A stretch of DNA of 64,000 nucleotides from Marivita sp. (GTDB taxonomy: Bacteria; Pseudomonadota; Alphaproteobacteria; Rhodobacterales; Rhodobacteraceae): the NCBI RefSeq assembly GCF_022763305.1, contig NZ_JALEGT010000085.1, positions 1 through 64,000 on the forward strand. The letters are read 5' to 3'. Within the stretch, counting starts at the first letter, position 1. Each line of letters begins with the position of its first letter. Below, piece by piece: positions 42,003 through 54,195 of this stretch. A model generated the notes under the pieces. The model worked only from the letters and a program-made list of their open reading frames with translations, was not told the DNA's origin and did no database searches. The position numbers and the translations under genes were made by a program.

Positions 42003-42029
42003 GGCGACGGGGGCAGCGCCCCCCTTTTT
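42003..42029 (+). repeat. GC-rich stem-loop repeat, copy 2, with T-run
   Basis: Same 21 bases as 9-29: GGCGAC then GGGGGC-AGC-GCCCCC, followed here by CTTTTT (42024-42029). GTCGCCC-AAA-GGGCGAC just before it (41992-42008) forms another hairpin. Read on the plus strand it would make a good terminator, but no plus-strand gene ends here, so it may be a dispersed element instead. Confidence 0.6.
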
Positions 42030-42036
42030 CGGATAC

Positions 42037-42066
42037 GAAAAAGGACGATGCGATGTCGCATCGTCC
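42037..42066 (-). terminator. intrinsic terminator of the liv operon
   Basis: A perfect 24-bp palindrome (42043-42066) with 11-base arms GGACGATGCGA / TCGCATCGTCC and a two-base loop. On the minus strand it is followed by TTTTTCG. It lies 36 bases after the stop of the substrate-binding protein and ends the seven-gene operon. Confidence 0.88.
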
Positions 42067-42102
42067 CTCTCTCGGATTGGCAGCGCCAATTCGAAACCTG
42101 CG

Positions 42103-43365
42103 TCAGTTCAGCGACGCCATGAAGTCATTCACTTCTGTCAGCGAGAGATATTTCTGCTCTTCGATGCCGCTTTCCGAGAAGACCCATGTCACGGCCGGCG
42201 CGGACACGTCCCCGTTCCTGTCGAACTGCACATTCCCGGTTGCGCCCTGGTAGGACACCGTGCCGCCGCCATCGAGAACCTCTTTCGCCTTGGCAAAACC
42301 TGCTGCATCGGCGGTGACGGGCGTGCCGTTCGGATCGGTGATCGCACCGATCTTGGCCGCGATATCGGCCCCTGTTGCATCCTTGCCCGCCGCGTGCATC
42401 GCCATGAGGGCAATCATGGTGGCGTCATAGCTGTTGGCCAGACCCGGACCGTTGGGGGGACCGTCGAACTTTGCGGTGTAGGCCGCGACAAACGCATCAG
42501 CGGAGTCGGTGCGCGGAGACGCCGTGTCGGTGCCGGTGAAGTTGCCGAGGAACTGCATGCCGACATTGTCGCGGAACTCGTCGGACTTGAGCGCATTGGC
42601 GGCGATCATGTTCTGCGTCCCACCAAGCGAGATCCACTCGCGGACGACCTGAGTGCCTTCCTTCGGATAGAGCGCCATGTAGATCGCTTCGGGATTGCCC
42701 TTCAGCGCCTCTGTGACTTCGGCGCGGAACGAGGCCTGCCCGTCATTGATGGCGATGGAGGCGGTGACGTCTATGCCGAGCGCCTTGAGGTCGTCGGCAA
42801 CCAGACCGCCGATGTCCTGTCCCCAGTCGTCGTTCTTGTAGAACACGGCCACGGATTTGTAGCCCGCATCGCGCGCCACCATGGCGCCGACAGCGGCCTG
42901 CACGCCGGATGTGGCGAAGGTGCGGTAGAAGAGACCGTTGGTCTTGCCCTCTTCGGCCAGACGGGTGAACGCGGTCGAGGACGAGCAGCAGGACATCTGC
43001 ATCACGCCTGCGGGCACCGTGACCGAGGTCAGGATGGGCATGGACACGCCCGAGGACACAGCTCCCAGCAACAGTTGAACGCCATCCAGATCGACCAGCG
43101 CCTTGGCGGCGTCCACGCCGACCTTGGGATCGACCTGCGTATCGCGCAGCACCATTTCGATCTGGCAGCCCGCAACACCGCCGGTCTCGTTCGCGATGTC
43201 CACGGCATATTGCGCGGTGGCCGCAATCGGTTTGCCCCAATCCACCGAGGTCGGCAGCACGGCACCGATCTTGGTCGTGCAATCCTGTGCGGCTGCGTCC
43301 GTGCCGAGGCTGGCAAACCCGGCAGCAAGGCCCAATGCGAGGGCCGAGGTCTTAAGTCCGTTCAT
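42103..43365 (-). CDS. Liv-type ABC transporter substrate-binding protein
   Basis: Periplasmic receptor of the HAAT family, 420 residues. Signal peptide: KTSALALGLAAGFASLGTDA with cleavage near AAA-QD. The mature protein begins CTTKIGAVLPTSVDWGKPIA and has QIEMVLRDTQVDPKVGVDAA, GAVSSGVSMPI, and YKNDDWGQDIGG, all typical of LivJ/K-like receptors. The odd MSCCSSSTAF (two adjacent Cys) replaces the usual ISPASTS-type ligand loop. It is the last gene of the AKR-transport operon, and the ligand is unknown, not necessarily an amino acid. Confidence 0.88.
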   Translation of the reverse strand: MNGLKTSALALGLAAGFASLGTDAAAQDCTTKIGAVLPTSVDWGKPIAATAQYAVDIANETGGVAGCQIEMVLRDTQVDPKVGVDAAKALVDLDGVQLLLGAVSSGVSMPILTSVTVPAGVMQMSCCSSSTAFTRLAEEGKTNGLFYRTFATSGVQAAVGAMVARDAGYKSVAVFYKNDDWGQDIGGLVADDLKALGIDVTASIAINDGQASFRAEVTEALKGNPEAIYMALYPKEGTQVVREWISLGGTQNMIAANALKSDEFRDNVGMQFLGNFTGTDTASPRTDSADAFVAAYTAKFDGPPNGPGLANSYDATMIALMAMHAAGKDATGADIAAKIGAITDPNGTPVTADAAGFAKAKEVLDGGGTVSYQGATGNVQFDRNGDVSAPAVTWVFSESGIEEQKYLSLTEVNDFMASLN

Positions 43366-43383
43366 TCCATAACTCCCAGTTCT

Positions 43384-44334
43384 TCATTTGTTGGGCCGTG
43401 CCGATTGTGACACGACCAGTTTTTCCGGGAAGAGCCCCTGTGGTCGCCACAGAAGCATCCCCACGATCACGAAGCCGATCAGCACGAACTGGATCGACCC
43501 GGTATAGAGCTGCACCTCCAGCGGTGCGAAGCGCGACAAGGCCCAACCGCTGGCCGTCCATGCGGCCCAGATCAGGAAGGTCCCCATCACCGCGCCCTTG
43601 TTGTTGCCTGCACCGCCGACGATCAGCATCGCCCAGATCTGGAAGGTGAGGATCGGCAGCACATCCTGTGGGCTGATGAAGGCATAAAAGGTGGCGTAGA
43701 GTCCACCGGCAAGGCCCATGATCACCGACCCGGCCACAAAGGACGTGAGACGGATGCGCGAGGGCGATTTGCCCAGCGATTGCGCGGCGGTCTCGTCTTC
43801 GCGGATGGCGCGCAGCAGCCGCCCGAACGGGGATTGGATCAGCCGTTCGAGGAAGATGTAGGTTGCGATCAGCAGGATCAGGACAAAGACAAAGAACGCG
43901 AGGTTGTAGGTGAACCCGTTGCCGAGCGTTTCCCGGAGCGGGCGTTCGAAGCCCCGGATGCCCTGCGCCCCGCCCAAAGCGTCGGTGTTGCGCATCACGG
44001 TCTCGAAGGCGACGGCGACGCCGAAGGTTGCGATGGCGAGGTAGTCGTGCCTGAGGCGGATCGTCAGCAGCCCGACGATCCAGGCGACGATCCCGGCGCA
44101 GACCATGCCTCCGAAAAGGGCCAGCAGGTAGGGAAGGCCGAACCCGCCCAACTGCCCGGCCTGGGGCGTACCGCCAAGGATCAGCGTGCCATAAGCCCCC
44201 GCCCCGAAGAACGCGACGACGCCGCCGTTGAAAAGGCCGGTGTTGCCCCATTGCAGGTTCAGGCCCATCACGGCGATGGACAGGATCGACGCCACGGTGG
44301 CGAAGAAGACGAGGTAGGAGATGACGCCGATCAT
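43384..44334 (-). CDS. Liv-type ABC transporter permease (LivM-like)
   Basis: A 316-residue permease with about nine or ten helices. It shows ALNLQWGNTGLFN-type start (GLNLQWGNTGLFNGGVVAFF), GAYGTLILGG, RAIREDETAAQSLGKSPSRI (the EAA-like cytoplasmic loop), and LPILTFQIWAMLIVGGAGNN. These identify the LivM family. It overlaps the LivH-like gene by four bases. Confidence 0.9.
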   Translation of the reverse strand: MIGVISYLVFFATVASILSIAVMGLNLQWGNTGLFNGGVVAFFGAGAYGTLILGGTPQAGQLGGFGLPYLLALFGGMVCAGIVAWIVGLLTIRLRHDYLAIATFGVAVAFETVMRNTDALGGAQGIRGFERPLRETLGNGFTYNLAFFVFVLILLIATYIFLERLIQSPFGRLLRAIREDETAAQSLGKSPSRIRLTSFVAGSVIMGLAGGLYATFYAFISPQDVLPILTFQIWAMLIVGGAGNNKGAVMGTFLIWAAWTASGWALSRFAPLEVQLYTGSIQFVLIGFVIVGMLLWRPQGLFPEKLVVSQSARPNK

Positions 44335-45245
44335 GTGCGCTCTTCCCCGAAGAGCCCATGTGGCCGAAGGATCAGCACGGCAAGGATGATGAGGAAAGGC
44401 ACCGCCGGGCTGTAACCCGATGGCAGGAGCACCAGAGCGAGGTTTGAGGCGAGGCCCACGATGAACCCACCCAGCACCGCGCCATATATGCTGCCGATGC
44501 CACCAACGATGGTGGCGGCAAAGATCGGCAACACCAGATCGCGGCCCAGCACCGGGCTGATCTGGTTGGTCAAGCCGTAGAACACACCTGCGGCGGCCGC
44601 GAGCCCGCCGCCGATCAGCCAGATCAGAACGATCATGCGGCTGAGATTGATGCCCGACACCTGAGCCAGCGTCGGGTTCTCAGCCACCGCGCGCAGGGAA
44701 TAGCCGAAGGTCGTGCGCGACAGGACGAGATGCAGGATGAACATGATCAGCAGCGCCGCCACCAGCGTGAACACCTGATCCGGCTTGATCAGCAGGAACG
44801 GATCGCGGCTGACGACGATGGCGAAGACGATGTCCTGCGAATAGAGCTTTGGGTTCAGGCCAAAGATCAGGCCAAGGATGTTGCGGATGATCATGGCCAC
44901 GCCGAAGGAGGCAAAGACCATCGACAACTCGCCGCCCTTGGCGCGGACGCGTTTGAACACCAGCTTGTCGATCACCACAGCCGACAGACCCGTCAGCGCC
45001 ATCGAGAGCAAAAGCGCTAGCGTCAGCGACCATGTGAGGCTGAGAGGCGGGATCGCCTCGGCCAGTGCGGGGTGGATCGCACCGAAGAGGCCGTCAAACA
45101 CCAATGCAGCATAGGCGCCGATGGAGAGCAGTTCGGCATGCGAGAAATTGGCGAAGCGCAGCATGTGCATCGCCATCGTCAGGCCAATCGCCCCCAGCGA
45201 CAGGATCGAACCAACCAGCACTCCGTCAACAAGGTTCTGGATCAT
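44331..45245 (-). CDS. Liv-type ABC transporter permease (LivH-like)
   Basis: A 304-residue permease with about eight helices. Family marks are GSILSLGAIGLTMAMHMLRF, ANFSHAELLSIGAYAALVF, and GYSLRAVAENPTLAQVSGIN (cytoplasmic coupling loop), then FAATIVGGIGSIYGAVLGGF. The first ten residues (MIQNLVDGVL) match LivH. Overlaps the LivF-like ATPase by four bases. Confidence 0.9.
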   Translation of the reverse strand: MIQNLVDGVLVGSILSLGAIGLTMAMHMLRFANFSHAELLSIGAYAALVFDGLFGAIHPALAEAIPPLSLTWSLTLALLLSMALTGLSAVVIDKLVFKRVRAKGGELSMVFASFGVAMIIRNILGLIFGLNPKLYSQDIVFAIVVSRDPFLLIKPDQVFTLVAALLIMFILHLVLSRTTFGYSLRAVAENPTLAQVSGINLSRMIVLIWLIGGGLAAAAGVFYGLTNQISPVLGRDLVLPIFAATIVGGIGSIYGAVLGGFIVGLASNLALVLLPSGYSPAVPFLIILAVLILRPHGLFGEERT

Positions 45246-45967
45246 GCCGATGCCACCCGTTTGCCGCCAAGGTAGATTTGGCCAACCACCGGATCGCTCA
45301 GCAGATCCTGCGCCGCGCCGTCGACCTGGTTGCGGCCATCGGCAAGGATGTAGCAGTGATCCGCCAACCGCAGCGCCTGTTTGACGTTCTGTTCAACGAG
45401 CAGGATCGTCACGCCCTGTTCGGTCAGGGCACGAATGTATTCCAGCACCTCCTGCGCCGCCTTGGGTGACAGCCCGGCAGACGGTTCGTCCATCAGGATC
45501 ACCTTTGGGTCGATGGCGAGCGCCATCGCCACGGCAAGGAACTGGCGTTGCCCACCGGAGAGGGCGCCCGCCTTTTCGGTCTGTTTGTCAGCCAGAGCCG
45601 GGAAGCGGGTGAACAGCGCTTCGCGCCGCGCTGCGGCCTCTTTCCCGGCATTGCGCAGCACCAGATCGAGGTTCTGTCGGATCGTCAGCGAGCGGAAGAT
45701 GTTGTCGGATTGCGGGACGTAGGCCACGCCCAGCGCGCCCATACGGTCGGGGCGCGGGTTGGTGATCTCGGCCCCGTTCAGGTGGACCGTGCCGCCCGAC
45801 ACCGGCACCAGCCCGGCAATCGCCTTGATCAGCGTGGATTTCCCCGCACCGTTGGGGCCGATGATGACCGTCACTTTGGCCGCTTGGGCGGTCAGCGACA
45901 CGCCTTTGAGGATGGGCAGGTCCGGCACGTAGCCCGCGACGACATTCCGTGCCACCAGCGCCGTCAT
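45242..45967 (-). CDS. Liv-type ABC transporter ATP-binding protein (LivF-like)
   Basis: A 241-residue ATPase: Walker [28 protein letters not shown] (Q-loop), signature ALSGGQRQ, Walker B VILMDEPSAGLSP, and VEQNVKQAL in the switch region, which is the LivF hallmark. Works with the LivG-like ATPase as a heterodimer. Overlaps it by four bases. Confidence 0.9.
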   Translation of the reverse strand: MTALVARNVVAGYVPDLPILKGVSLTAQAAKVTVIIGPNGAGKSTLIKAIAGLVPVSGGTVHLNGAEITNPRPDRMGALGVAYVPQSDNIFRSLTIRQNLDLVLRNAGKEAAARREALFTRFPALADKQTEKAGALSGGQRQFLAVAMALAIDPKVILMDEPSAGLSPKAAQEVLEYIRALTEQGVTILLVEQNVKQALRLADHCYILADGRNQVDGAAQDLLSDPVVGQIYLGGKRVASA

Positions 45968-46743
45968 TCGACCTGCGCCCCCAGATAGGCATCAAGAAGA
46001 ACGGGATTGTTCTGCGCCTCTTCGGCGGTGCCTTCGAAAACCTTGCGCCCTTCGGCCAGGGCGATCACCGGGTCGCAATGCTGCATGACGAAATCCATGT
46101 CATGTTCGATGATGACAAAGGTTTTGCCGCCGCGATTCAGTTCCTCGATTTTCTCGATCAGAGTCCGTGTCAGGGACGGGTTCACCCCGGCGGCGGGTTC
46201 GTCCAGCAGGATCAGCTTGGGATCACCCATCAGGATGCGGGCCAGTTCCAGAAGCTTCATCTGCCCACCCGAGATTTGCCCCGCCGCCTGATCGGCCAAT
46301 GGGGCGAGCGTAACGAAATCCAGCACCTCCATCGCGCGTTTGCGAATGGCCGCCTCCTGATCACGGACCTTGGCAGCGCCAAAGAACGGCCCCCAAAGGC
46401 GCTCGCCCATCTGCGCCTTGGGCGCGAGCATGACGTTTTCCAGAACGCTCATTCGCGAAAATGGGCGCGGGATCTGGAAGGTGCGACCAAGGCCAAGGCT
46501 GAACAGGGCGTCGGGTGCGAACTCGGTCACGTCCTGACCGTCGAGATGGACGGTGCCGCTGGTCGGCTTCAGCATCCCGGTCAGCACGTTGAAGAGCGTG
46601 GTCTTGCCAGCCCCATTGGGGCCGATCAGGCCCGTGATCGTCCCTGCCCTCATGTCGAGAGACACGTCGTTGACCGCACGGAACTCGCCGAAGGTCTTGC
46701 TGACATTCCGGATGCTGAGGATCGGTTCAGCCATGCTACCCAT
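45964..46743 (-). CDS. Liv-type ABC transporter ATP-binding protein (LivG-like)
   Basis: A 259-residue ATPase: GLIGPNGAGKTTLFNVLTGM, GLGRTFQIPRPFSRMSVLEN (LivG-specific), signature ISGGQMKLLE, LILLDEPAAGVNP, and the switch IEHDMDFVMQHCD. Two starts are possible: ATG 46743, overlapping the AKR stop by eight bases, or ATG 46734, one base behind that stop. Confidence 0.9.
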   Translation of the reverse strand: MGSMAEPILSIRNVSKTFGEFRAVNDVSLDMRAGTITGLIGPNGAGKTTLFNVLTGMLKPTSGTVHLDGQDVTEFAPDALFSLGLGRTFQIPRPFSRMSVLENVMLAPKAQMGERLWGPFFGAAKVRDQEAAIRKRAMEVLDFVTLAPLADQAAGQISGGQMKLLELARILMGDPKLILLDEPAAGVNPSLTRTLIEKIEELNRGGKTFVIIEHDMDFVMQHCDPVIALAEGRKVFEGTAEEAQNNPVLLDAYLGAQVE

Positions 46744-47806
46744 GCACCGCGTCGTTCGGGTTGGTGTTCAAGTTGTATTTCATGATCCGGCCATGCCGCC
46801 CCGTCCGGTCGCGTTCGAGGGAATAGACATCACCCTTGGGGCCATCCGCCAGATCGAGCACGGCGTTCAGCGTGGCGTGATCTTCGGCATCGAGTGCGAA
46901 GGCGAAAGTCTGGAGGGTCTGCGGCAGGTGCCGGGCATAACGCGCGCCGACGATCCCGGCGGCGACCTGCGGCTGGTCCAGCACCCAGCGGGTGGCGACC
47001 GCCGAAAGGGACACGCCATGTTTGTCGCCGACGGTTTTCAGCGCCTTGAGCAGAGCCTGGAAGCGGTCCCAAGGGCCGAATTCGTCGATGATGAGGCGAT
47101 ACTTGATCAGGCTGCGGTTTTCGAACTGGAACCCGGGGTCGGGTTCGCCCAGCCATTTTTCGGTGATGAAGCCGCCGGCGAGCGTGCCGTAGCAGATCAG
47201 TTGCAGATCGTTGGCGGCAGCCCAGTCGGTCAGTCCGTTGGCGGGGCGGCGATCAAGCACGGAATACTGCACCTGCGCCGAGGCGATATCGAACCCGGCA
47301 TCGACAAAAGGCTGCATCGCCTGCCGGTCCCAGTTGGTGGTGCCGAGGTTCTTGATCTTGCCCTCTTTGCGCAGGTCCTTCAGCACATCGACAGCCTCGA
47401 CCGCATTGCCGATGCCGAGATCCCACCAGAAGAACTGCACCAGATCGAGTTGGTCGATCTTCAGACGTTGAAGCGAGCGGTCGACGATGGCCGTCACCTC
47501 GTCTGGCCGGAGGTCAGCCAGCCTCGTGAGGTCAGGCACCAGCTTGGTATGCACGCAGACTCGGTCCGCCACAGATGCCCCACGCCGGGCGCGCAGGTCG
47601 GCGATGAAGTCTCCGATCATCTCTTCGACGCCAGTGTAGATGTCGGCGCAGTCGAAGGTGAAGAGACCAGCGTCGACGAACGCCTCCATGTCGCGGATCG
47701 CCTGCGCGCGGTCCACCGGGCCGTGGTCGCCCGCCAGTTGCCAGCCGCCGCGAATGACACGGGCGATGGTATGGCCGGGGCGAAGGTCGATGGTTTCAAC
47801 GCTCAT
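46736..47806 (-). CDS. aldo/keto reductase with Phe at the catalytic His position
   Basis: A 356-residue member of the aldo/keto reductase barrel family. The tetrad is Asp52 and Tyr57 (FDCADIYTG), Lys88 (VHTKL), but LVQFFWWD puts Phe126 where AKRs usually have His (LQxHW). The C-terminus has QAALKALKTV-like helix, SAVATRWVLDQPQV and GARYARHL for cofactor binding. The start ATG 47806 overlaps the preceding stop as ATGA. It is second in the operon before the importer, and only about 40 percent alike to the divergent AKR by eye. Substrate unknown. Confidence 0.82.
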   Translation of the reverse strand: MSVETIDLRPGHTIARVIRGGWQLAGDHGPVDRAQAIRDMEAFVDAGLFTFDCADIYTGVEEMIGDFIADLRARRGASVADRVCVHTKLVPDLTRLADLRPDEVTAIVDRSLQRLKIDQLDLVQFFWWDLGIGNAVEAVDVLKDLRKEGKIKNLGTTNWDRQAMQPFVDAGFDIASAQVQYSVLDRRPANGLTDWAAANDLQLICYGTLAGGFITEKWLGEPDPGFQFENRSLIKYRLIIDEFGPWDRFQALLKALKTVGDKHGVSLSAVATRWVLDQPQVAAGIVGARYARHLPQTLQTFAFALDAEDHATLNAVLDLADGPKGDVYSLERDRTGRHGRIMKYNLNTNPNDAVHG

Positions 47807-48177
47807 GTCTGGACTTTCCAATAGGGTGTGCTGCGCTGGTCCGGCAGGCCCGTGGTTTCAGAGTGGCGGAAGGTGCGTTTGCCCGTGCGTGTCACCCGGA
47901 ACCGACCGCCGCAATTCGGGTCGGGGCAGGCGATCTCGGCGTCGGTGGACATCCAGTCGTTTGGGGAGGTCGGGCGTTGCTTGGCGGGTAGCAGAGGCAA
48001 CAAAGCGGCCAGCGCGTACATCGACACTTTCTGCTGCCCGTCGAAGATCAGCAATTCGCCTTCGACGCGGAAGCTTTCGCCTTCGATGTGTCGGCACACG
48101 GATGTGCGGTCGCCCACCACCGTTTCGACGCGCAGGTCATAAAGCCAGAAGTCGTCCGCGTCCTGCGCCGCGCTCAT
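47803..48177 (-). CDS. TIGR04076-like small protein
   Basis: A 124-residue protein that resembles the uncharacterised TIGR04076 family: YDLRVETVVGDRTSVCRHIE, GESFRV, ALAALLPLLPAKQRPTSPND, and CPDPNCGGRFRVTRTG. The Cys-x-His pair at the start and CPDP near the end are family landmarks; metal binding is possible but unproven. I prefer ATG 48177, which has GGGGA before it; the ATG at 48225 would sit inside the palindrome at 48220-48231. First gene of the operon. Confidence 0.65.
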   Translation of the reverse strand: MSAAQDADDFWLYDLRVETVVGDRTSVCRHIEGESFRVEGELLIFDGQQKVSMYALAALLPLLPAKQRPTSPNDWMSTDAEIACPDPNCGGRFRVTRTGKRTFRHSETTGLPDQRSTPYWKVQT

Positions 48178-48219
48178 CGTTCCCCAGTGCGCGGTTTCGC
48201 GCAGTTGTTCCCTGTTGTT

Positions 48220-48231
48220 AACCATATGGTT
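48220..48231. promoter_or_regulatory. 12-bp palindrome in the divergent control region
   Basis: AACCATATGGTT is a perfect palindrome between the TIGR04076-like gene (start 48177) and the AKR-Rid fusion (start 48304). Position and symmetry fit an operator for a dimeric regulator controlling both transcription units. No regulator gene is in the cluster. Confidence 0.5.
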
Positions 48232-48303
48232 GCTGGGATCTTTCGGGGTTGTCAAACGGGTTCGGGGCGGCAACTCATGGGCAGACAGCCGAAAGGACCG
48301 CTT

Positions 48304-49752
48304 GTGACCCAGCCTGACAGTATCGCCCTGAGTGACCGCCTGACGATCCGCCGTGCACTTGTGGGGCTGTGGCAGGTGGCCGATATCGAGAAAGACGGCG
48401 ACATCATCGACCCCGAGGTGGGCGCGGATCATCTTGCGGCCTATGCGGATGCCGGGTTCGACAGTTTCGACATGGCGGATCATTACGGGACAGCTGAGAT
48501 CATCACAGGCGCGCTCTTGAACCGTGGGGTCAAGGCCACTGTCGGTACCAAGTGGTGTCCTGTACCCGGCCCGATGACGGCGGAGGTGGTGCGCGCCGGG
48601 GTGCAGGAACGGCTGGACCGGCTGGGCGTGGATCGGGTCGATCTGCTGCAATTCCACTGGTGGAGCTTCGAGCACCCGGCATGGCTCGACGCGCTGCACG
48701 AGATGGCCAAACTGCGCGAGGAGGGTCTGATCGGCGAGATCGGGCTGACCAATTTCGATGCCGCGCACCTGCATCTGGCGCTGGCGGACGGGATCCCGAT
48801 TGTCAGCAACCAGGTGCCCTGCTCGCTTCTGGATCGCCGCGCGACCGGGCCTTTGTCGGAAGTTTGTGCCGCGTGGGGCGTGAAGCTTTTGTGCTACGGC
48901 ACGTTGCAGGGCGGGTTCCTGTCGGAGCGTTGGCTGGGCAAGCCGGAACCGGCCGAAATCACCGACTGGAGCAAGATGAAGTACAAGCGCTTCATCGACC
49001 ATGCCGGGGGATGGGACGCGTATCAGACGGTTTTACAGGCGGCGGTGGATGTGGCGGCCAAGCATGGCGTGTCCATTGCCAATGTCGCAACGCGCTGGGT
49101 GCTCGAGAACGACGCAGTTGCCGGGGTCATCATCGGCGCGCGTCTGGGCGAGGCGCGGCATACGGACGATAACCTAAAGCTGTTCCGGTTTGCGCTGGAC
49201 GAAGAGGATCACGCGCGCCTGAACGCGGCCTTTGCCGTGACCACGCCCCTGCCCGGCGATTGCGGTGATGAATACCGCAAGCCGCCCTTCCTGACGGCAA
49301 GCGGCGATCTGAGTCACCACCTCGACACGATGCCTTTGGCCGTCACGGTCGAGGACGTGCCCGGCAGGCCCGGCGAAAAGCGGGTGCTTTCGGGCAGCGA
49401 GTGGGAGGACATTGCGGGTTACTGCCGCGCGCATCGGATCGGGGACCGCGTGTTTGTCTCGGGCACGACGGCAACCGCAGGTCTGAGCCACGCCGTTGCT
49501 CCAAAAGACGCAGGCGCACAAACGACCTTCATCCTCGACAAGATCAGCGCCGCACTGACCGCGCTTGGGGCGTCGATGGAGGATGTCGTGCGGACGCGGG
49601 TCTACCTGAGCGATGCCGATGATGTGCTTGCCGTGTCAAAGGCGCATGGGCGCATCTTTGCGGACATCAAACCGGCCAACACGCTGTTCCAGATCGGTCA
49701 GTTGATCGGTGACTACAAGGTCGAGATCGAGGCCGAAGCGATACTCCGGTAA
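48304..49752 (+). CDS. aldo/keto reductase-Rid domain fusion protein
   Basis: One ORF of 482 residues with two domains. Residues 1-320 are an aldo/keto reductase with a full tetrad: Asp56 and Tyr61 (FDMADHYG), Lys83 (GTKW), His118 (LLQFHWWS), plus cofactor motif NVATRWVLENDAVAGVIIGA. Residues 350-482 are a RidA/YjgF-like trimer-forming domain (YCRAHRIGDRVFVSGTTATA, SMEDVVRTRVYLSD, VEIEAEA). The Arg that RidA uses for imine hydrolysis is Asn459 here (PANTLFQIG). GTG 48304 has AAAGGA seven bases upstream; ATG 48277 is an alternative. Divergent from the transport operon. Confidence 0.82.
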   Translation: MTQPDSIALSDRLTIRRALVGLWQVADIEKDGDIIDPEVGADHLAAYADAGFDSFDMADHYGTAEIITGALLNRGVKATVGTKWCPVPGPMTAEVVRAGVQERLDRLGVDRVDLLQFHWWSFEHPAWLDALHEMAKLREEGLIGEIGLTNFDAAHLHLALADGIPIVSNQVPCSLLDRRATGPLSEVCAAWGVKLLCYGTLQGGFLSERWLGKPEPAEITDWSKMKYKRFIDHAGGWDAYQTVLQAAVDVAAKHGVSIANVATRWVLENDAVAGVIIGARLGEARHTDDNLKLFRFALDEEDHARLNAAFAVTTPLPGDCGDEYRKPPFLTASGDLSHHLDTMPLAVTVEDVPGRPGEKRVLSGSEWEDIAGYCRAHRIGDRVFVSGTTATAGLSHAVAPKDAGAQTTFILDKISAALTALGASMEDVVRTRVYLSDADDVLAVSKAHGRIFADIKPANTLFQIGQLIGDYKVEIEAEAILR

Positions 49753-53415: not shown

Positions 53416-54195
53416 ATGGCTCAGACCTCGACCGATCGCGCCGCGACGACTGACTTCAATGCCTATGCAGTTTCTACCGATAAAGTTGCCACGTTCGACG
53501 GGCAGCCTCGACGCGACACCCCTCTCACCCGCACCATCGAGGCTGCCGCCCTTCTCGCGGACCAGACCGTGTCCGAGTCCAGTTTTACCGTTCCGGCCTC
53601 GGCCACGTTCGAAGCCTGTGCATCCGCCTTTGCGCGGGGCACATTGATTTCGACGGTCATGGGGCCGGTCGCCGTAGAAGACCTGATCCCCGGTGATCTG
53701 GTCGAAACCCACCGGGGACCGCAGCCCGTAATGTGGATCGGCAGCACGCCGTATCTGCCGGACTTCGGCGGTGACACGACCTCTCTCACACATTTGCTCC
53801 GTTTGCCGGGCTACGGCATGGGCCAGGGTGATCTCCCCCTTGGTCCTGCCGCCCGGTTGGTGATCCGGCAGGATCGCTTTGCCGATCTTCTCAATTGTGA
53901 CGCGGTGCTGGCACCGGCCAGCGACTATGTCGATGGCGATCGCGTGCTGCGGATCACCCCGCCCGGGCCGGTGCAGCTCTATCATATCGCGCTGCGCCGC
54001 CACGGGATCATCCGTGCCAACGGTCATGAGCTCGAAAGCTATCATCCGGGGCGCGTGTCCGCCGCAGAGATCGGGACGTCTGTCCGTGCGATGCTGCAGT
54101 CGATGTTCCCGCATCTGGATGCGCTGGAATCGTTCGGTGATCTTGCCTTTCCGCGCACCACCCGCGAGGTTATCGAAACCTTGCGCGTCGCGTGA
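53416..54195 (+). CDS. Hint-domain protein with degenerate nucleophile site
   Basis: A 259-residue protein. After about 70 low-complexity residues comes a Hint-type core: FARGTLISTVMGPVAVEDLI, PGDLVETHRGPQPVMWIGS, and later YHIALRRHGIIRANGHELES with YHPG. In self-cleaving Hint domains a Cys or Ser stands directly before the F-x-x-GT; here it is Ala71 (SAFARGT), with the nearest Cys at 68. There is no N-terminal signal peptide visible. AAAGGG precedes ATG 53416. Function unknown; relatives occur in many copies in roseobacters beside RTX-like proteins (recalled). Confidence 0.75.
   Translation: MAQTSTDRAATTDFNAYAVSTDKVATFDGQPRRDTPLTRTIEAAALLADQTVSESSFTVPASATFEACASAFARGTLISTVMGPVAVEDLIPGDLVETHRGPQPVMWIGSTPYLPDFGGDTTSLTHLLRLPGYGMGQGDLPLGPAARLVIRQDRFADLLNCDAVLAPASDYVDGDRVLRITPPGPVQLYHIALRRHGIIRANGHELESYHPGRVSAAEIGTSVRAMLQSMFPHLDALESFGDLAFPRTTREVIETLRVA

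Follow-up and report, generated by a model that had tools for sequence, protein, structure and literature searches.

A conserved alphaproteobacterial gene module combines a Liv-like importer, aldo/keto reductase family proteins, a Rid domain and a TIGR04076 protein, with a possible link to tryptophan-derived compounds

Within a 64,000-nucleotide stretch of a Marivita sp. genome (contig NZ_JALEGT010000085.1; the whole stretch is hereafter the window, and the genome comprises 4.4 Mb in 121 contigs), eight genes encode a Liv-like ATP-binding cassette (ABC) importer, a TIGR04076 protein and two members of the aldo/keto reductase (AKR) superfamily, AKR1 and a fusion to a Rid domain (AKR-Rid). This set of genes, here called the cassette, keeps its content among relatives while its order changes, and importer, AKRs and Rid domain almost certainly constitute one functional module. 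The best explanation of the module, which we put forward tentatively, is that it serves the catabolism of a compound entering the tryptophan/kynurenine/anthranilate route. No description of this gene set was found in the literature searched, which consisted of Creative Commons-licensed articles in PMC. The eight genes are all open reading frames, placed as in an earlier reading of the sequence alone (the sequence-only reading), and each matches a named family in Pfam and NCBIfam scans:

42038–42066, minus strand: intrinsic terminator closing the seven-gene operon (perfect stem of 11 bp at 42043–42066, then TTTTT)
42103–43365, minus strand: periplasmic binding protein, Liv/HAAT type (Peripla_BP_6; motif SCCSSST; Asn257)
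43384–44334, minus strand: LivM-type permease (PF02653)
44331–45245, minus strand: LivH-type permease (PF02653)
45242–45967, minus strand: LivF-type ATPase (by family scans)
45964–46743, minus strand: LivG-type ATPase (by family scans)
46736–47806, minus strand: AKR1, aldo/keto reductase family (Phe in place of the catalytic His, VQFFWWD)
47803–48225, minus strand: TIGR04076 protein (likely true start 48177; 55.6 bits, cut-off 33)
48178–48276, no strand: divergent control region (palindrome at 48220–48231, not conserved)
48277–49752, plus strand: AKR-Rid fusion (AKR domain with the Asp-Tyr-Lys-His set, C-terminal Rid domain)

When AKR-Rid was searched for at E 1e-60 in 295 sampled genomes of the same family, 30 contained a match, the window's own counted. 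Under a strict rule, the full set is present at 17 of the 29 other same-family AKR-Rid loci and at 58 of 80 loci in a second set from public genome contigs, the top 80 of at least 550 confirmed relatives; at least seven records are common to the two sets (L038/L114, L047/L119, L051/L126, L042/L090, L049/L102, L045/L094 and L050/L130). These counts miss some LivH genes through an overlap rule (LivH is listed otherwise at L049, L050, L061, L130 and L143), and many incomplete loci end at contig borders. The same-family loci without the full set include such contig-end cuts, seven where AKR-Rid is the sole core gene (five of them with a binding protein of the polar-amino-acid type), and L042, where AKR1 is missing. 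Among the best 80 relatives, the top matches to AKR-Rid are a Rhodobacteraceae metagenome-assembled genome (MAG; L064, 93% identical) and Marivita sp. S6314 (L065, 89%), and the record titles of cassette carriers name Rhodobacterales, Rhizobium, Mesorhizobium, Labrenzia/Roseibium, Inquilinus and others.

The cassette occurs in no fewer than three gene orders. Order I is that of the window; a GntR-type gene is often present in the divergent gap. In order II, genes for the binding protein (which shares about 35% identity with that of the window), AKR1, TIGR04076 and GntR face LivG-F-H-M-AKR-Rid, and order III reads AKR1-LivGFHM-binding protein-Rid-SRPBCC-like-AKR-Rid. The GntR and SRPBCC labels, like the M20 and deacetylase labels used below, were assigned by eye or by similarity, and those for GntR and deacetylase fit the annotation of named records. 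Retention of the same content despite rearrangement is strong evidence of joint function, and the neighbourhood, whose conservation beyond close relatives the sequence-only reading had left to a co-occurrence search, is indeed that widely conserved. Two loci in these sets are unusual in themselves: L109, titled Mycobacterium sp. KBS0706, carries an order-II cassette closely resembling the Inquilinus loci and is perhaps a mislabelled genome, and L092, from an Azospirillaceae MAG, has partial second AKR-Rid and TIGR04076 matches at one locus, perhaps a decayed duplication.

Searches with an AKR1 profile show which part of the cassette is most constant. Matches were found in 21 of 385 genomes of the class, the window's own included, and in 13 of 398 genomes of the phylum, all from the same family or class. 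The class-wide loci analysed were 20 AKR1 loci from 18 other genomes, plus three AKR-Rid loci; a TIGR04076 match is present at 19 of the 20 (18 by the strict rule), the exception being L181. The pairing extends to haloarchaea, with TIGR04076 beside an AKR in Natronosalvus and about 3.4 kb from one in Natrinema, and the TIGR04076–AKR pair is the core of the module. Around this core the remaining genes vary. The AKR and Rid halves are encoded by separate genes at L180, L183, L186 and L187. At five of the eight phylum-search loci (L231, L232, L233, L236 and L237) the importer end carries a DAO-type flavin adenine dinucleotide (FAD) oxidoreductase gene, and there is no AKR-Rid; the genomes of these five give a single match at E 1e-60, and in G842, G845 and G965 the second match is AKR-Rid. 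The same gene occurs without AKR-Rid at the importer end of L221 and the binding-protein end of L224 and L179, and several of the loci that have it in the absence of AKR-Rid are rhizobial. An aspartate-dehydrogenase-like gene follows the binding-protein gene at four loci in each of the 29- and 80-locus sets, counting the shared records, and also at L222, where it was confirmed with Pfam. Given that the relatives' loci repeatedly contain genes for FAD oxidoreductases, aspartate-dehydrogenase-like proteins and stand-alone Rid proteins, the chemistry of the module is probably that of amines, imines and carbonyls.

At the four loci with split AKR and Rid genes, the TIGR04076–AKR core sits in an extended cluster that also contains genes for hydantoinase A/B and class V aminotransferase. 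Some of these clusters have, in addition, an Amdase/racemase-type gene or one for an FAD oxidoreductase, and the clusters possibly represent the ancestral pathway.

The importer consists of a PF13458 binding protein, two PF02653 permeases and two PF00005 ATPases, the composition of a HAAT-type ABC importer. It shares this five-gene make-up and these Pfam families with the Liv importers of branched-chain amino acids, yet all subunits fall below the NCBIfam cut-offs for LivF, LivG, LivH and LivM (LivG, for instance, 208.3 against 362) and below the Urt equivalog cut-offs of the urea importer UrtABCDE (UrtE, 199.3 against 285.8). It differs further in the SCC motif of the binding protein and in an Asn at position 257, which we take to be a contact to the amino group of the ligand; in Atu2422 (3ip5) an Asp is aligned to this Asn. 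The residue follows gene order, being Asn in 49 of 49 order-I proteins, Asp in 48 of 50 from order II and Asn in 11 of 14 from order III.

Both AKR1 and AKR-Rid exceed the gathering score of PF00248, and AKR-Rid (190.6 bits) also matches PF01042 at 76.8 bits, which places its C-terminal domain in the Rid superfamily. The canonical AKR catalytic set is Asp-Tyr-Lys-His. This motif is found in 121 of 122 AKR-Rid matches, one being unreadable, whereas among 127 AKR1 matches the His position holds Phe or Tyr in 54, His in 66, Ser or Cys in four and an unreadable residue in three. The window's AKR1 has Phe there, in agreement with an alignment to GSP69 (1pz1), and loss of the His marks order I, the window included, as well as L184, L186, L187, L188, L190 and L240. 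The "two reductases" of the sequence-only reading are thus one protein with a full catalytic set and one without the catalytic His. By sequence, the nearest solved structures are 1pz1 for AKR1 and 4xk2 for AKR-Rid, which differs from ordinary AKRs in being fused to a Rid domain.

The Rid domain likewise departs from its family. It shares PF01042 with the RidA/YjgF and Rid4–Rid7-like proteins, and its nearest solved relative by sequence is 3i7t, but it is fused to an AKR, scores below the TIGR00004 cut-off and has Gln at the position of RidA Arg105. By motif, this position holds Arg in 11 of the 122 AKR-Rid matches, another residue in 103 and an unreadable one in eight. In RidA, according to Niehaus 2015 (PMC4433059), this Arg is essential for imine hydrolysis, and Rid4 to Rid7 lack it. 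The standard imine-handling Rid domain assumed by the sequence-only reading is therefore not supported. A precedent for a catabolic role is AmnE, a 2-aminomuconate deaminase of aromatic-amine catabolism, which shows the Rid fold serving as a catabolic deaminase (PMC6742747); AKR-Rid resembles it by its Rid domain, although AmnE stands alone, has Arg117 among its conserved cleft residues and is given no AKR partner in the passages of that paper on it.

The membership of the third enzyme-like component, the TIGR04076 protein, is clear and bears out the sequence-only reading, its score lying over the curated cut-off. Its start is more likely at 48177 (MSAAQ...) than at 48225, since relatives begin nearby. 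Cys 44, 100 and 105 are invariant in a 15-row bacterial alignment, and all three are replaced in the haloarchaeal protein of L220, a Natronosalvus halobius plasmid, a joint loss that would be expected of a shared metal site. The structure model is of moderate confidence (pLDDT 76.7), and its best match in the PDB has E 0.21, not a convincing solved relative, so the fold gives no function; sequence matches to two designed barrels (E 0.004 and 0.046) were taken as chance. The single paper found to name the family offers redox or iron-cluster work as a guess only (PMC8667426).

It is the neighbourhood of the cassette in other genomes that points to tryptophan-derived compounds. Among 62 genomes that have the cassette, AKR-Rid or AKR1, a kynureninase gene (TIGR01814) lies within 20 kb in five (G020, G322, G452, G663 and G965) against about 0.65 expected, and an NF006101 gene within about 20 kb in six (G020, G024, G250, G322, G452 and G965) against about 0.47, where the expectations assume 4.6-Mb genomes and ignore contig ends; in a sixth genome, G250, kynureninase lies at about 23 kb. 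For NF006101 the uncorrected Poisson P is about 1e-5 if genomes are counted and 1.3e-4 if genera are. NF006101 is also somewhat commoner in same-family genomes that carry the cassette (13 of 23) than in controls (18 of 60; Fisher one-sided 0.025), the former defined by TIGR04076, importer genes and AKR-Rid at the locus (five being incomplete by the strict rule) and the latter taken from 265 same-family genomes without an AKR-Rid match; G142 counts as positive by a partial match, and control G055 by a match under the cut-off. Among genomes of at least 3.5 Mb the counts are 13 of 21 and 14 of 43.

Individual loci illustrate the association. In a Mesorhizobium MAG (L101), genes for tryptophan 2,3-dioxygenase, kynureninase, a benzoate-CoA-ligase-family protein, an acyl-CoA dehydrogenase, an enoyl-CoA hydratase and NF006101 follow AKR-Rid; from such gene content we infer that NF006101 (named salicylyl-CoA 5-hydroxylase by NCBI, and read here as 2-aminobenzoyl-CoA monooxygenase-like) and the ligase belong to the 2-aminobenzoyl-CoA route. 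Genes for kynureninase and alpha/beta hydrolases are found close to the core at L184 and L186/L187 (TIGR01814 over the cut-off at L184, just under it at L186), kynureninase and a ligase just below its cut-off at L047, NF006101 about 0.1–0.2 kb beyond the binding protein in G024/L114, and both kynureninase and NF006101 in G965/L244. L089 may belong with these loci by virtue of a single 475-aa frame. On the Natronosalvus halobius plasmid, an annotated indoleamine 2,3-dioxygenase gene and a confirmed kynureninase gene are about 9 kb from the TIGR04076–AKR pair. Likely genes of aerobic tryptophan-kynurenine-anthranilate catabolism via 2-aminobenzoyl-CoA are thus near the cassette in several lineages, although the cassette itself encodes none of the known enzymes of that pathway. 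Since kynureninase and NF006101 occur near the cassette above chance, a substrate linked to tryptophan, kynurenine or anthranilate is favoured, tentatively and on moderate, post hoc support.

Several observations weigh against this reading. The two neighbour families were picked post hoc, and the window's cassette, like most others, is not near such genes; the two kynureninase genes and the NF006101 cluster of the window's genome lie on contigs other than that of the cassette. Presence of kynureninase anywhere in the genome was dropped as a correlate of the cassette, being equal with it and without it (51 of 62 and 50 of 60). Judged by its residues, the window's Rid domain is without the Arg on which archetypal imine hydrolysis depends, and the ligands of orders I and II may differ, their predicted amino-contact residues being unlike. 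AKR1 is absent from L042/L090 (one record) and L079, where the rest of the set is present, and FAD-oxidoreductase matches at the AKR-Rid loci L116, L117, L039 and L235 make the mutual exclusion of the two less than strict. A role of AKR-Rid as the needed deaminase of 2-aminobenzoyl-CoA clusters was ruled out, as all three NF006101 clusters examined (L247, L250 and L252) carry a small Rid gene of their own; AKR-Rid more likely acts upstream, on an imported compound of similar structure.

With these points in mind, the following scheme can be proposed, in which we infer the substrate class, the order of steps and the activity of each enzyme from gene content, conservation, neighbourhoods and residue changes. 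The importer would take up a small compound that contains nitrogen. AKR-Rid would then use NAD(P)H to reduce a carbonyl in the cytoplasm, or catalyse the opposite oxidation, and the Rid domain of the fusion would remove or channel an enamine or imine on the same substrate. AKR1, without the usual catalytic His, might with the TIGR04076 protein perform a second step, perhaps reduction of a C=C bond or enone and not of a plain carbonyl, and the product would join the route from tryptophan and kynurenine through anthranilate to 2-aminobenzoyl-CoA. One can go further and imagine a new entry route to tryptophan/anthranilate catabolism in which TIGR04076 and the His-less AKR form a two-part enzyme, and AKR-Rid combines reductase and deaminase in one polypeptide and channels an enamine. 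We think this unlikely; if it were true, it would provide a function for TIGR04076 proteins and for the Arg-less Rid domain. The sequence-only reading had proposed more generally that importer, reductases and Rid domain would suit a carbonyl- or imine-forming nitrogen compound, and of this the module and the amine/imine link are supported, whereas the pair of reductases and the standard Rid domain are not.

A somewhat doubtful but serious alternative is that the module serves another amine, an N-methyl amine, a lactam or a hydantoin-like compound, the kynureninase and NF006101 neighbours reflecting chance or shared catabolic islands. The hydantoinase and aminotransferase genes of the extended clusters fit such a substrate, as do the L-pipecolate-oxidase-like FAD gene at L180 and L183 (303 bits, below the 600 cut-off), the Amdase/racemase-type gene at L186 and L187, the FAD gene at the eight loci without AKR-Rid named above, and the 54–58%-identical AKR-Rid relatives beside a polar-amino-acid-type importer; the alternative leaves unexplained the recurrence of kynureninase and NF006101 near the cassette in several genera, and the haloarchaeal case. 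A role in scavenging or detoxification, with the importer recovering leaked reactive carbonyls or enamines and AKR and Rid quenching them, is quite improbable. AKRs are a known damage-control family, and so is Rid (Niehaus 2015, PMC4433059); a five-gene importer of its own, in many cases accompanied by a GntR-type regulator, is more in keeping with nutrient use, however, and the Rid Arg is lost. That the genes are unrelated neighbours merely sharing an operon, a general possibility only, is scarcely credible given the same set through three gene orders, down to 35–50% identity.

Whichever substrate is involved, the module is widespread in Alphaproteobacteria, including, by record titles, marine and plant- or soil-associated genera. 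Its constant partners provide a testable shared context for three poorly understood groups, the TIGR04076 proteins, Arg-less Rid domains and His-less AKRs, and the binding protein offers a direct way to the substrate. Should the kynurenine/anthranilate link be true, the cassette would represent an uptake route for tryptophan-derived compounds in these bacteria.

The architecture of the window agrees for the most part with the sequence-only reading. Coordinates and family matches support seven linked minus-strand genes, which overlap by 4 bases, or 8 for LivG and AKR1, with an 18-base gap instead between LivM and the binding protein; the plus-strand reading frame of AKR-Rid, with both its Pfam domains, diverges from them. 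The perfect-stem terminator is likewise sound, folding at -25.5 kcal/mol (z -5.5, 0 of 200 shuffles equally good), and the minimum-energy fold of this stretch also takes part of the T run into pairing. An automated terminator scan did not list it, perhaps because the fully paired stem leaves a 2-base loop. The "palindromic control region" fared less well. The palindrome AACCATATGGTT exists within the divergent region, but it is lacking from the sister locus L064 and from all other loci compared except copies of the window, and a conserved palindromic operator was ruled out on those loci. Many relatives have a GntR-type regulator gene in the divergent gap; the window's gap has none. A scan for sigma-70 promoters found 0, against 1.5 in shuffles.

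Some minor observations concern other loci and other parts of the window. AKR-Rid relatives at L057, L058, L059, L060, L034, L194 and L197, the first five 54–58% identical to the window's, adjoin a polar-amino-acid-type ABC importer and suggest a second AKR-Rid module, which at some loci includes a polysaccharide-deacetylase gene, an M20-like hydrolase (by eye) and an XRE-type regulator; L197 has genes annotated as N-formylglutamate amidohydrolase and glutamine synthetase family. Just past the operon terminator, at 42009–42024, the plus strand has a terminator-like hairpin and a T run, and at 53416–54195 it encodes a protein that, read by eye, resembles a Hint/intein-type domain.

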